A stretch of DNA of 64,000 nucleotides from Halorubellus sp. JP-L1 (GTDB taxonomy: Archaea; Halobacteriota; Halobacteria; Halobacteriales; Natrialbaceae). A model generated the notes under the pieces. It searched no databases, was not told the origin of the DNA, and saw only the letters and a list, made by a program, of their open reading frames with translations. The DNA lies in contig NZ_JAAOIR010000001.1 of NCBI RefSeq assembly GCF_011440375.1, forward strand, positions 434,001 through 498,000, in the 5' to 3' direction. Shown in pieces: positions 15,526 to 20,470 of this stretch. Every line of letters starts with the position of its first letter. Position 1 is the first letter of the stretch. The position numbers were made by a program, and so were the translations under genes.

Positions 15526-16611
15526 TCAGTTCGGGTCGGGGTCGAAGATCTCGTCGTCCTCGGGGCCCTCTGCGCGGACGACGGCCATGGCGCCCTTCCG
15601 CGCGACCCGCGAGAGCGCGTGGTCGACGAGCTTGAAGTCGCCCGGCACCGGGAACGACATGTGCGTGACGCAGGAACTCCCGGGCGCGACCGGAAGCGTC
15701 TGCACGTACCGCTGCGGGTCGTTCGCGAGCGCGCCCTCGGCCCAGACCTCGTCCCAGACCGAACCGATGGCGTGGAACGAACTCGTGAGGTTCGGACCGC
15801 CGACCGCGTAGAACACGCGAGCGGTGTCGCCCGTCTGCACGTTCATCTCGTCGTGCGTGTCCGGCGTGATCGCGTACTTCTCGCCGTTCATCAGGACGTA
15901 CGTCGGGTCCTCCGCGGCCATCGACGCGAAGTCGAACTCGTGGTGGCCCTCCTCGCCCGCGCTCCCTTTCGTGTAGACCTCGTGCTGGCCGAGGTAGAAC
16001 TCGTGGTCGACCGCGGGGAGGCCGTCCTCGGGTTCGACGACGATGAGACCGAACATTCCCGCGGAGATGTGGTAGTCGACGTTCGCGACCGCGCAGTGGT
16101 AGACGAACGCGCCCGGGTACGTCACCTCGAACCGGAGGCGTTCGGTCTCGCCGGGCGCGACCATCGTCGCCTCCGCGCCGCCGCCAGGGCCGCGGGTCGC
16201 GTGGAAGTCGACGTTGTGCGCCATCGAGTTGCTCTCCGGGTTCCGGATGGTGAGGTCGACCGTGTCGCCTATACGCGTCCGGACCATCGGGCCCGGGATC
16301 TGGCCGTCGAACGTCATGTACGTGAACGTGACGCCGTCCTCGACCTCCGCGACGACCTCCTTCGTGACGAGTTCGACCTCGACGGTCGCGGGCTCGTCGC
16401 GGTCGATCTGTGCGGGGACGTCCCGCGGGTCCGCGGCGACGCGGTCGACGTCCACGGACTCGGCCGCCGACAGCGACTCCTCTCCGACCGAGGTCGGGAC
16501 TGCGGTGAGGTCGTCGCGCTGTACCCCGCCGATGGTGCAGCCGGCGAGCGCCGTCGCACCGGTCACGCCGACCCCTTGCAGGAACCGCCGTCGCGTCGTG
16601 GTCTGAGTCAT
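15526..16611 (-). CDS. nirK: Copper-containing nitrite reductase NirK
   Basis: A 361-residue two-domain cupredoxin enzyme reducing nitrite to nitric oxide outside the cell. The N-terminus has a twin-arginine signal (TTRRRFLQGVGVTG) and a following ALAGC, so it may be Tat-exported and lipid-anchored. Copper ligands are evident: HNVDFHATRG (His to type 1 and type 2 copper, and the catalytic Asp), FVYHCA (His to type 2, Cys to type 1), HISAGMFG (His and Met to type 1), SFHAIGSVWDE (second-shell catalytic His region) and LVDHALSR (third type 2 His). I chose the ATG directly before the Tat signal; 16 upstream codons lack one. Divergent from a double halocyanin gene. Confidence 0.93.
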   Translation of the reverse strand: MTQTTTRRRFLQGVGVTGATALAGCTIGGVQRDDLTAVPTSVGEESLSAAESVDVDRVAADPRDVPAQIDRDEPATVEVELVTKEVVAEVEDGVTFTYMTFDGQIPGPMVRTRIGDTVDLTIRNPESNSMAHNVDFHATRGPGGGAEATMVAPGETERLRFEVTYPGAFVYHCAVANVDYHISAGMFGLIVVEPEDGLPAVDHEFYLGQHEVYTKGSAGEEGHHEFDFASMAAEDPTYVLMNGEKYAITPDTHDEMNVQTGDTARVFYAVGGPNLTSSFHAIGSVWDEVWAEGALANDPQRYVQTLPVAPGSSCVTHMSFPVPGDFKLVDHALSRVARKGAMAVVRAEGPEDDEIFDPDPN

Positions 16612-16756
16612 TGGCTTGTGTCCTCGACTCGTACTTGGCGCAGCACACAGATAGACCACCTCGACGGTTTCCTGGCCGTGAGAAGCGTTCTAACGGAATG
16701 AGAAGGACGTCCCGTCGTTATCTCGACGCGTCGCCTCGTTCGAGACGTGAACGACA

Positions 16757-17845
16757 GTGCACCCTACTGACTCATCAACGCGAGGCATCGACCGGCGGGC
16801 GTTCATCGGTGCGGTCGGGGCGAGCGCGACGGCGGGTGCGCTCGCGACCGGGCCGTCGGCGGTCGGCGCCAGCGAGACCGAACCGGATCTCGAGGAGTGG
16901 TTCGCGAACGCGGACAACTACGACGGCGTCGCGAACAAGACGGGCCTCGACGAGGTCGTGGTCGAGGTCGGGACGGACGCGAACGGCGGCGCGTTCGGGT
17001 ACGGACCGGCGGCGATCCGCGTCGACCCGGGAACGACCGTCGTCTGGGAGTGGACGGGCGACGGCGGCCAGCACGACGTCGCCGCGACCGACGACTCGTT
17101 TGGGTCGCCGCTCACGGACGAAGCGGGTGCGACGTTCGAGCACACGTTCGAGGCGGAGGGAACGACGACGTACTCGTGCACGCCCCACGAGGCGATTGGG
17201 ATGAAGGGTGCGGTCGTCGTCGGCGACGCCCCTGCGGGCACCGCAGCCGATAGCGTGGAGCCGGACTACGGCGACTGGTTCGCGGACGTGGACAACTACG
17301 AGTCGACCGTGGACGCGCGCGGCACTGACGAGGTCGCGGTCTCGGTCGGTGCCGAGGGCAACGGCGGCGCGCTCGCGTTCGACCCGCCCGCGGTCCACGT
17401 CGACCCGGGGACGACCGTCGTCTGGAAGTGGACGGGCGACGGCGGCACGCACGACGTCGCGGACGCCGACGGCGACTTCGCGTCCGAGGCCGCCGCGGAC
17501 GCCGGCCACACGTACGCAGTTACGTTCGACGGTGCCGGCATCAGCAAGTACCGCTGCACGCCGCACGAGGGCGCGGGGATGAAGGGCGCGGTCGTCGTCG
17601 GCGAGTACAGCACCGCCGGCATCACCGTCGGGCCGGAGGTCCTCGGCGTCGGCGGCAGCCTCCTCGCCGCGGTCCTCTCGCCGATCGCGTTCTACGTGTT
17701 CCTCGTCGCACGCGGCGTCGGCGGTCGTCCGCCCGTGGGACGGTCGTACCGGCCGGGCGACGAAGACGCGCCGTTCGACCGGGAGACGGTACCGCGCCGT
17801 GACGACTCCCGGGACGACTCCGCGTACTCGGGCCGCACGTCCTGA
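16757..17845 (+). CDS. Membrane-anchored protein with two halocyanin (blue copper) domains
   Basis: A 362-residue protein starting at GTG. It has a Tat signal (IDRRAFIGAVGASA), two tandem halocyanin domains (about 45-155 and 170-285), a C-terminal membrane helix (about 295-320) and a charged cytoplasmic tail. Each domain keeps a full type 1 copper set: GGQHDV with CTPHEAIGM in the first, GGTHDV with CTPHEGAGM in the second (His, Cys, His, Met). Both should therefore bind copper and carry electrons at the outer face. It is divergent from nirK with 145 bp between starts, which suggests it supplies electrons to NirK; that link is inferred from context. Confidence 0.92.
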   Translation: MHPTDSSTRGIDRRAFIGAVGASATAGALATGPSAVGASETEPDLEEWFANADNYDGVANKTGLDEVVVEVGTDANGGAFGYGPAAIRVDPGTTVVWEWTGDGGQHDVAATDDSFGSPLTDEAGATFEHTFEAEGTTTYSCTPHEAIGMKGAVVVGDAPAGTAADSVEPDYGDWFADVDNYESTVDARGTDEVAVSVGAEGNGGALAFDPPAVHVDPGTTVVWKWTGDGGTHDVADADGDFASEAAADAGHTYAVTFDGAGISKYRCTPHEGAGMKGAVVVGEYSTAGITVGPEVLGVGGSLLAAVLSPIAFYVFLVARGVGGRPPVGRSYRPGDEDAPFDRETVPRRDDSRDDSAYSGRTS

Positions 17846-17865: not shown

Positions 17866-18129
17866 TCAGTCGCTGACCGCCGTCCGGGTCGACGCGCCGA
17901 CCTCGGGTGCGGGCTCGTCGACGTCGACGTGGCCGTCCGCGCGCACGGTGACGGTCCGGTCCGCGTAGGTGAACGCAACGGCGCCCTCCGCCATCCCCTC
18001 GACGAGCGTCTCCAGCCCGTCGGGGTCGACCGCGTCGTACAGGGGTGGCAGTTCGAGCGCGTCACTGTCCGTTGCGTCTGCGACGCTCCGTACGATTCTC
18101 GTGGTCACCGACTCCGTCGTGCTTGCCAT
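17866..18129 (-). CDS. HalOD1 (halobacterial output domain 1) protein
   Basis: An 87-residue, single-domain protein matching the small HalOD1 family found in haloarchaea as a stand-alone protein or at the end of response regulators. Typical features are RIVRSVADATDSDALELPPL followed by LYDAVDPDGLETLVEGM and a final beta-rich part (VTVRADGHVDVDE). The start MASTTES is preferred over an ATG five codons upstream because a TATA-like box lies 24 nt before it. Likely a signalling or regulatory partner; no ligand is known. Confidence 0.8.
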   Translation of the reverse strand: MASTTESVTTRIVRSVADATDSDALELPPLYDAVDPDGLETLVEGMAEGAVAFTYADRTVTVRADGHVDVDEPAPEVGASTRTAVSD

Positions 18130-18151
18130 GGTTCGCCATTCCACCGACGGG

Positions 18152-18712: not shown

Positions 18713-20470
18713 TCAGGCCGACGCCGACGACGCCGAGTCCCGTCGTACCCGCATCCGTTCTGCGTCACCGTCGACCCGCCCGCTAGCGTCGACTCCACCG
18801 ACCGGTGCCGCGCGGGAATCGGTCGCCGGGGTGGCCTCGGCCATGCGGTTCGCTTCGGGTGTCGGATCCGCCTCGGTCGTCCGGTTCGCTTCGGTCGTCG
18901 CGTTCGTCTCGTTCCCGGCCGTGGCGTTCGTGTCGTTCGTCTCCTGGACGACGTACTGCTGGCCGACCATCGGGTCGAGCAGGCTGTCGACGGGCGCGTA
19001 GTCGTCCGTGAGAACCGGGACGTCGCTCGTCTTCGGTGGGTCGCGGTAGTTCCGGATCTCGCCTTCGAGGTCGATCCCGATGTCGCGGCGGTCGTTGCGC
19101 GCGAGCAGCGCCGCCTCGTCGAGGCGCGTCTCGTTCTTCGTCGCGACGACCTCGACGTTCTGGACGACGGCGCCGCCGACGGTCGGGAATGTGTACACAG
19201 CGCCGAACGCGCTGTCGATCGTCTTGTACTCGGCGCGGTAGAACTCGGAGGCGGGGCCGCTCGGCGCGCTGATGAGGTTCGTCAGGAGGACGCCGTCCTC
19301 GTCGAGGCGGTCGCTCGCGAGTTGCATGAACTCCTGGGTCGTCAACTGGAACGGTACCTTGTCCTTCTTGTACGCGTCCAGGACGATGACGTCGTACGTG
19401 CGGTTCGTCTGCCGGAGGTACTCGCGGCCGTCGGCGTTGTACACGCGGAGGTCGTCGGACTCCTCCAGCCGGAAGTACTCCTCGGCGACCGAGATGACTT
19501 CGGGGTCGATCTCGACGACGTCCACGGTCGCGTCGTACTCGTTCGCGAACCGCTTCGGGCCAGTGAACCCGCCGCCGCCGACGAACAGGACGCTGTCGAC
19601 GTCGTCTGTCATGAGCATCGTCAGGTGGAAGTACCGCGTGTAGTCGAAGACGTGCCGGTTCGGCGCGGACTTGTCCATCGCGCTGTGCTTCTGGCCGTCG
19701 AGGTAGAGCGTGCGCGTGTCCCCGCGGTCAACGACGCGGAGTTCCTGGTACGGCGTCTGCGTCTCGTAGACGACCGCGCCGTCGATAGAGAGGCCCGCCG
19801 CGCCGCCGCCGATGGCGGCGACGAGGAGCGCGAGCGCGAACCCGGTCGCGGCGACGTTCTCGCGCGTCAACCCCGGGAGGTGGAGCGCGACGGCGGTCGC
19901 GACGGAGACGACGCCGAATACGAACGCGATCGCTTCGACGCCCAGCGACGGGATGAGGACGAACGTGGTCGCGAACGCCCCGACGATGCTCCCGACGGTC
20001 CCGAGCGCGTACACGTGCCCGGAGGCCGCCCCGAGGCCGTCCTTCTCGGAGAGTTCTGCGGCGTACGGACTCACGTACCCGAGGAGGTACGTCGGCGGCC
20101 CGAACAGGAGCGTGATCGCCGGGAGCGATGCGAAGCGACTCGGGAGCGGGACCGTCCCGAGGCCGCGCACGAGCGCGTCGCCGAGCACGATGAGCGCCGC
20201 GACGTACACCGCGGTGAGGAGGAACACGCGCGCCATGCGGCCGTTCGTCGCCCGCCGCGCCGCTCGCTTCCCGCCGCGGTAGTAGCCGTAGCTGAGCGCG
20301 GCGAGGAACACGCCGATGATGCTCCCCCACGTGTAGATGCTGCTCCCGAACTGCGGCGCGATCATCCGCCCGGCGAGTATCTCGAGGCCCATGCTCGTGA
20401 CGCCGGAGACGACGACCGCGAGCTCGGGCTTCGTCGGCCGAACCCGCTCGAGGACGGGACCGTCTGGCAT
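18713..20470 (-). CDS. Seven-helix membrane protein fused to a spermidine-synthase-like domain
   Basis: A 585-residue protein. Residues 1-240 hold seven predicted membrane helices with a strongly basic loop after helix 2 (GGKRAARRATNGRMAR). Residues about 255-500 are a spermidine-synthase-like Rossmann domain: QTPYQELRVVDRGDTRTLY, DGQKHSAMDK, VLFVGGGGFTGPKRF (SAM-type loop), VDVVEIDPEV and YDVIVLDAYKKDKVPF. The polyamine-site Asp-Glu pair typical of SpeE is DK here, so amine transfer is doubtful. The C-terminal tail is Thr/Glu-rich with at least five N-glycosylation sequons. Topology puts the C-terminus outside. The start MPDGPVLERV is the first sensible ATG. Membrane-fused SpeE-like proteins are widespread but poorly characterised. 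Confidence 0.82.
   Translation of the reverse strand: MPDGPVLERVRPTKPELAVVVSGVTSMGLEILAGRMIAPQFGSSIYTWGSIIGVFLAALSYGYYRGGKRAARRATNGRMARVFLLTAVYVAALIVLGDALVRGLGTVPLPSRFASLPAITLLFGPPTYLLGYVSPYAAELSEKDGLGAASGHVYALGTVGSIVGAFATTFVLIPSLGVEAIAFVFGVVSVATAVALHLPGLTRENVAATGFALALLVAAIGGGAAGLSIDGAVVYETQTPYQELRVVDRGDTRTLYLDGQKHSAMDKSAPNRHVFDYTRYFHLTMLMTDDVDSVLFVGGGGFTGPKRFANEYDATVDVVEIDPEVISVAEEYFRLEESDDLRVYNADGREYLRQTNRTYDVIVLDAYKKDKVPFQLTTQEFMQLASDRLDEDGVLLTNLISAPSGPASEFYRAEYKTIDSAFGAVYTFPTVGGAVVQNVEVVATKNETRLDEAALLARNDRRDIGIDLEGEIRNYRDPPKTSDVPVLTDDYAPVDSLLDPMVGQQYVVQETNDTNATAGNETNATTEANRTTEADPTPEANRMAEATPATDSRAAPVGGVDASGRVDGDAERMRVRRDSASSASA

Follow-up and report, generated by a model that had tools for sequence, protein, structure and literature searches.

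Spermidine synthase, SpeE, is a cytoplasmic enzyme. The protein considered here carries a SpeE-like domain behind seven membrane helices and is encoded in a 64,000-nucleotide stretch of the haloarchaeon Halorubellus sp. JP-L1 (contig NZ_JAAOIR010000001.1, positions 434,001 to 498,000), called the window below. Its gene lies on the minus strand at 18713-20470, with an ATG at 20470 and a stop at 18713, and the product is 585 amino acid residues long. The architecture and outward topology of this protein emerge from computation, and the SpeE-like domain is very probably located outside the cell. The best explanation, and a somewhat likely one, is that it is an extracytoplasmic methyltransferase acting on exported molecules.

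The closest described architecture is that of the fungal enzyme NHMT (AN4663). In the accessible parts of its description (PMC10349129), seven helices extend to residue 215 and are followed by a methyltransferase domain resembling spermidine synthase (SpdS). The enzyme resides in the endoplasmic reticulum and methylates the N-terminal histidine of secreted enzymes, acting on copper enzymes. Deletion of the seven helices abolishes activity. NHMT has isoleucine (I322) instead of the acid in the motif GxG(D/E)G, and E340 is required; the acid of GGGD is described as needed for decarboxylated S-adenosylmethionine (SAM). From BLAST searches, the authors report the seven-transmembrane (7TM) domain essentially only in filamentous Ascomycota.

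SpeE homologs have also been described in halophiles. According to the accessible parts of PMC5178350 (2016), they have seven helices and do not conserve the putrescine residues, the halophiles have neither AdoMet decarboxylase nor spermidine, and deletion of HVO_B0357 gave no phenotype. A second paper, PMC6267482, reports in its accessible parts that HVO_0255 of Haloferax volcanii combines a GG(GA)G(F/Y) motif with a long extension at its C-terminus, that HVO_B0357 has GGGD(W/Y), and that one HVO_0255 transposon mutant was hypertolerant to hypochlorite. By this description, HVO_0255 fits the family of the window protein, and HVO_B0357 fits a second haloarchaeal family. Orthologs of the window protein in other Haloferax species are 63-69% identical. 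In those parts of the two papers, the domain of HVO_0255 is neither placed outside nor read as a methyltransferase.

The window protein matches the NCBIfam family NF037959, "fused MFS/spermidine synthase" (MFS_SpdSyn), with 257.5 bits over residues 26-497 (cut-off 40). This family is already known and named; the outside placement and the methyltransferase reading are new as far as the searched literature goes. Searches on the family name, on membrane or periplasmic SpeE, and on extracytoplasmic SAM enzymes did not find the outward topology of NF037959 in print. The protein is the sole match to PF01564 in its own genome. Matches occur in 76 of the 145 genomes sampled from the order; in 11 they are weak only (E 6e-12 to 4e-5), and orthologs are thus counted in 65; the weak-only matches that were examined belong to the second haloarchaeal family. 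The closest named relative, from Halorubellus salinus, is 84% identical, and its locus also carries relatives of the flanking 137-residue and 155-residue genes. Two alignments were used. One holds 59 complete orthologs from the 65 genomes, with frameshifted, partial and unfetched copies excluded; the other (A2) holds 63 of 80 named orthologs plus the window protein, 64 sequences in all. The features of the gene are as follows.

18713..20470, minus strand: whole gene, 585 residues, NF037959 family, HVO_0255-like
19799..20431, minus strand: seven-helix membrane domain, residues 14-224 (AlphaFold2 model and hydropathy)
20366..20383, minus strand: helix 1 residues 30-35 with Glu30 and Arg35, identical in 15 of 15 archaeal and bacterial sequences aligned
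20225..20278, minus strand: basic loop 2, residues 65-82, predicted inside (mean net charge over 59 orthologs)
19799..19864, minus strand: helix 7, residues 203-224, with a signal peptide in its place in two-gene bacterial versions (model and two-gene proteins)
18950..19786, minus strand: SpeE-fold/class I methyltransferase-like domain, residues 229-507, predicted outside (domain matches, model, structure search)
19559..19579, minus strand: GGGGFTG cofactor loop, residues 298-304, without the acid of the spermidine-synthase GGGD (alignments)
19511..19513, minus strand: Glu320, invariant, at the position of the SAM-binding Glu (alignment; putative likeness to NHMT E340 by position)
19367..19378, minus strand: Asp365-Ala-Tyr-Lys368, changed DxxD pair (alignments)
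18716..18949, minus strand: tail, residues 508-585, with five N-x-T sequons, disordered in the model (sequon count and AlphaFold2 model)

The first-pass annotation of this DNA had predicted seven helices, a strongly basic second loop, an internal N-terminus and an external SpeE-like domain. Hydropathy averaged over the 59 orthologs bears out the seven helices, as does an AlphaFold2 model built from 64 sequences (mean predicted local distance difference test score, pLDDT, 81), and an even number was not found. The model places the helices, mostly at high pLDDT, at residues 14-41, 45-73, 76-104, 116-140 (with a break at 131-132), 146-175, 178-197 and 203-224. In the same 59 orthologs, loop 2 is indeed basic, with a mean net charge of +3.15 and a positive charge in 98%. 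Lysine and arginine together number 9.55 per protein in the predicted inner parts (the N-terminus and loops 2, 4 and 6), compared with 0.95 in the outer loops. With seven helices and the N-terminus predicted inside, the SpeE-fold domain is placed outside. The predicted orientation also agrees with two further lines of evidence, the two-gene versions and the direction bias of the sequons.

A further view of the topology is offered by bacteria in which the protein is split. In five proteobacterial genera it is divided between two adjacent genes. One product stops behind helix 6 and is often basic at its end; the other is SpeE-like. Nine intact pairs were taken: four in Pseudoalteromonas, two in Pseudomonas, and one each in Xanthomonas, Sphingomonas and Aeromonas. 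Because they come from five genera, they do not represent nine independent events. The membrane partner is shortened in the Aeromonas pair, and in locus L194 it is annotated at just 162 residues. By eye, the SpeE-like protein of every pair starts with an apparent cleavable signal peptide at the position of helix 7. A crude mechanical signal-peptide rule passes eight of the nine, missing Sphingomonas, and it also passes 14 of 46 other complete genes of those loci, of which many seem to encode secreted proteins too. Two cysteines are invariant in all nine SpeE-like proteins. In two Pseudoalteromonas loci, the SpeE-like gene is overlapped at its end by a TlpA/redoxin gene (L073 6511-6987 and L190 3385-3861), the product of which likewise carries a signal-peptide pattern. 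On a plain reading, the separate domain would be periplasmic and probably disulfide-bonded.

The tail provides the third line of evidence. From residue 508 on it contains the five sequons that had been noted earlier (NDT, NAT, NET, NAT and NRT), which had been taken as the mark of a surface glycoprotein. Sequons were counted in 81 haloarchaeal proteins (80 named loci and the window), with reversed S/T-x-N motifs and shuffled sequences as controls. The tails hold 92 N-x-S/T sequons versus 12 reversed motifs and 20.7 expected from shuffles, an excess beyond composition that fits a glycoprotein-type tail. The corresponding numbers are 114, 65 and 73.0 for the domain and 14, 9 and 14.5 for the membrane part. 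At least one sequon occurs in the tail of 61 of the 81 proteins. As a further control, 300 cytosolic-like proteins encoded in loci of this kind gave 182 sequons versus 211 reversed motifs, and 13 versus 40 in their last 35 residues; this control is rough because it suffers from the faulty gene picking described below for the neighbour clustering. No p value is given for the excess because the proteins are related. The excess depends on both direction and place, and is therefore as expected for N-glycosylation outside the cell. A match to an STT3-type oligosaccharyltransferase is present in the genome. The tail is probably an N-glycosylated linker.

The residues of the domain do not fit a spermidine synthase. 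SpeE (3gjy, 1inl) has the same fold and keeps both GGGD and DxxD; the window protein has neither acidic motif intact. The first-pass annotation had already observed that the acidic pair is changed to DK, and had doubted polyamine synthesis for this reason. The pair reads D365-A-Y-K368, with Lys368 in place of the second Asp, and no intact polyamine-synthase active site was found. The doubt is strengthened by loss of the acid of GGGD. G301, at the acid position, E320 and D365 are invariant in 64 of 64 aligned haloarchaeal proteins, the loop following D365 is invariant as well, and the glycine loop and the QN and LDG motifs are invariant or nearly so. Against the TIGR00417 speE equivalog the protein scores 52.3 bits, compared with the 249.55 required. 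AdoMet decarboxylase (PF02675) has no match in the genome, while 8 of 14 controls match; other decarboxylase types were not searched. On these counts, the protein is not a normal polyamine synthase, and its database name, spermidine synthase, is probably wrong.

The relatives of the domain are methyltransferase-like. The best single-sequence match in the PDB is METTL13, a human protein methyltransferase (E 9e-9), and the two SpeE-like proteins from two-gene pairs that were searched also have METTL13 as their best PDB match (5e-13 and 9e-15). Like the window domain, the METTL13 C-terminal domain (5wcj) has a glycine-rich loop without the acid. Its structure with S-adenosylhomocysteine (SAH) is matched with Z 19.6 and a root-mean-square deviation (rmsd) of 2.3 over 187 residues. 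METTL13 differs in being cytosolic and in having no membrane part. The only viral structures in the search were a giant-virus spermidine synthase and generic methyltransferases.

As far as the available description of NHMT extends (PMC10349129), the window protein resembles it in having seven helices followed by an SpdS-like methyltransferase domain, and in lacking the acid of GxG(D/E)G while conserving a Glu. We infer the correspondence of G301 and E320 with I322 and E340 from position only, the spacing being 19 in one protein and 18 in the other. NHMT works on the exported side, as predicted for the window domain. The first-pass annotation had called an outward SAM-type domain unexpected; the topology stands, and the surprise is softened by this precedent.

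The putative mechanism can be outlined as follows. The protein would be an enzyme with the class I SAM-methyltransferase fold that is anchored in the membrane and exposes its catalytic domain on the outer side. From an internal N-terminus, helices 1-6 would run to an internal C-terminus, and helix 7, resembling an uncleaved signal sequence, would carry the domain out. The tail would serve as a probable N-glycosylated linker. The domain would bind SAM through the GGGG loop and Glu320, and with Asp365 and the loop following it would transfer methyl groups to exported proteins, or to some other molecule at the surface, much as NHMT does, instead of synthesizing spermidine. The invariant Glu30 and Arg35 suggest that the membrane half does more than anchor the enzyme. 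A methyltransferase facing outward would have to be supplied with SAM, and the simplest role to propose for this half is therefore transport of the cofactor; it may move SAM out or SAH in.

Several points weigh against an extracytoplasmic methyltransferase. A profile of 28 orthologs puts spermidine synthases above METTL13, and the top structural match is 3gjy, annotated as a spermidine synthase (Z 26.1, rmsd 2.7). The net loop charges of the 59 orthologs are untidy, with -1.29 in inner loop 4 and +0.88 in outer loop 3. The supply of SAM outside the cell is left unexplained, and we infer, rather than observe, SAM binding, methyl transfer, the substrate and cofactor transport. Two copper proteins lie close to the gene in the window: a multicopper oxidase-domain protein at 15526-16659 (minus strand), presumably NirK-like, and a two-domain plastocyanin-type (halocyanin-like) protein at 16757-17845 (plus strand). 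A link to copper, prompted by these genes and by the action of NHMT on copper enzymes, was dropped: with tblastn at 108 ortholog loci, halocyanin was found at 1 and multicopper oxidase at 0, and no such link is claimed because these neighbours are not kept. The likeness to NHMT rests on a published description (PMC10349129, in part), not on sequence kinship. The H. volcanii glycoproteome study PMC8241124 does not mention HVO_0255 in its accessible main text, nor HVO_B0357. Finally, the authors of PMC6267482, in its accessible parts, take HVO_0255 for a polyamine enzyme whose active-site residues are conserved.

The alternative that survives best, though unlikely, is an outward receptor or transporter. 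Here the SpeE-like domain would bind an adenosyl compound or a polyamine, and paired membrane halves would form a transporter or sensor. Spermidine synthases form dimers, the NCBIfam name includes MFS, the catalytic pair is changed, and the invariant charges in helix 1 would suit such a role. Yet no Pfam MFS model matches the 585-residue protein even at E values as high as 1, Asp365 and its loop are conserved as in a catalyst, and two rough neighbour checks gave no conserved transport genes alongside. Fold searches listed no MFS or other membrane fold, the lists being filled by the one soluble domain, and the helix domain folded without an alignment gave a poor model (pLDDT 48). The loop between helices 2 and 3 resembles MFS motif A.

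With GGGD lacking its acid and DxxD its second Asp, the domain could also be a degenerate, non-catalytic outward scaffold of the SpeE fold, a reading made improbable by the near invariance of Glu320, Asp365, the glycine loop, QN and LDG. More doubtful still is an inward-facing polyamine aminopropyltransferase. SAM is a cytoplasmic cofactor, and the overall fold, the match to 3gjy and the untidy loop charges are all compatible with it. Against it stand the signal peptides and cysteine pair of the separate domain, the sequon excess, the equivalog score and the lack of an AdoMet decarboxylase match; this is the function given in databases and in the accessible parts of PMC6267482. Least likely of all is an outward aminopropyltransferase that would use decarboxylated SAM, imported or scavenged, to modify molecules of the surface; such an enzyme would suit the fold and topology but for the Gly in 64/64 proteins at the acid needed for that cofactor (PMC10349129, in part) and the absence of a PF02675 source in the genome.

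If the extracytoplasmic methyltransferase is correct, many NF037959 entries called spermidine synthase are misnamed, and the puzzle of SpeE homologs in spermidine-free halophiles, posed in the accessible parts of PMC5178350, would be solved. Prokaryotes would have a means of methylating molecules on the far side of the membrane, where SAM is not believed to occur; with the domain on the outside, the route by which the cofactor reaches it becomes a question. Fungal NHMT, whose 7TM domain is described as unique to filamentous fungi (PMC10349129, in part), would gain prokaryotic counterparts. It is conceivable, but rather doubtful, that NF037959, which ranges from haloarchaea to mycobacteria and pseudomonads, is an overlooked class of prokaryotic extracytoplasmic SAM-dependent methyltransferases, whose membrane half exports SAM or exchanges it for SAH and whose substrates are proteins methylated after export. 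With the bacterial version in two genes, each half could be tested by itself.

The second haloarchaeal family (HVO_B0357-type, L062-L071) also has a SpeE-like domain, and seven hydrophobic windows by the same rule in 8 of 10 members. It differs in its low identity (20-39%), in keeping GGGD, and in a cysteine pair, present in the three sequences inspected, near the position of the bacterial pair. From these features, its domain may also face outside.

Conserved neighbours of the orthologs, from a rough gene clustering, are lineage-level only, with a GTPase in 30 of 109 stretches (the 108 loci and the window). The clustering is weak, as in GC-rich DNA it picked open reading frames on the wrong strand and did so even at the focal gene itself. 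In the window, a small HalOD1-domain protein is encoded at 17866-18144 (minus strand).

Some minor observations concern other members of the family. In L060 (G134) and L079 (Paracoccus), the membrane part and domain lie in different frames, and the copies look frameshifted or misannotated; L079 was not among the nine pairs, since its second gene has neither a domain start nor a signal peptide. A search of phages with a two-gene SpeE-like protein gave no match. Pairs on Xanthomonas and Pseudomonas plasmids (L076 2848-4466, L078 2956-4478 and L193 1791-3313) have as neighbours a lytic transglycosylase gene and genes of the type found in conjugation or type IV secretion. A fused mycolicibacterial protein (L074 4917-6461) has two cysteines shortly past helix 7, and its loop 2-3 likewise resembles MFS motif A.
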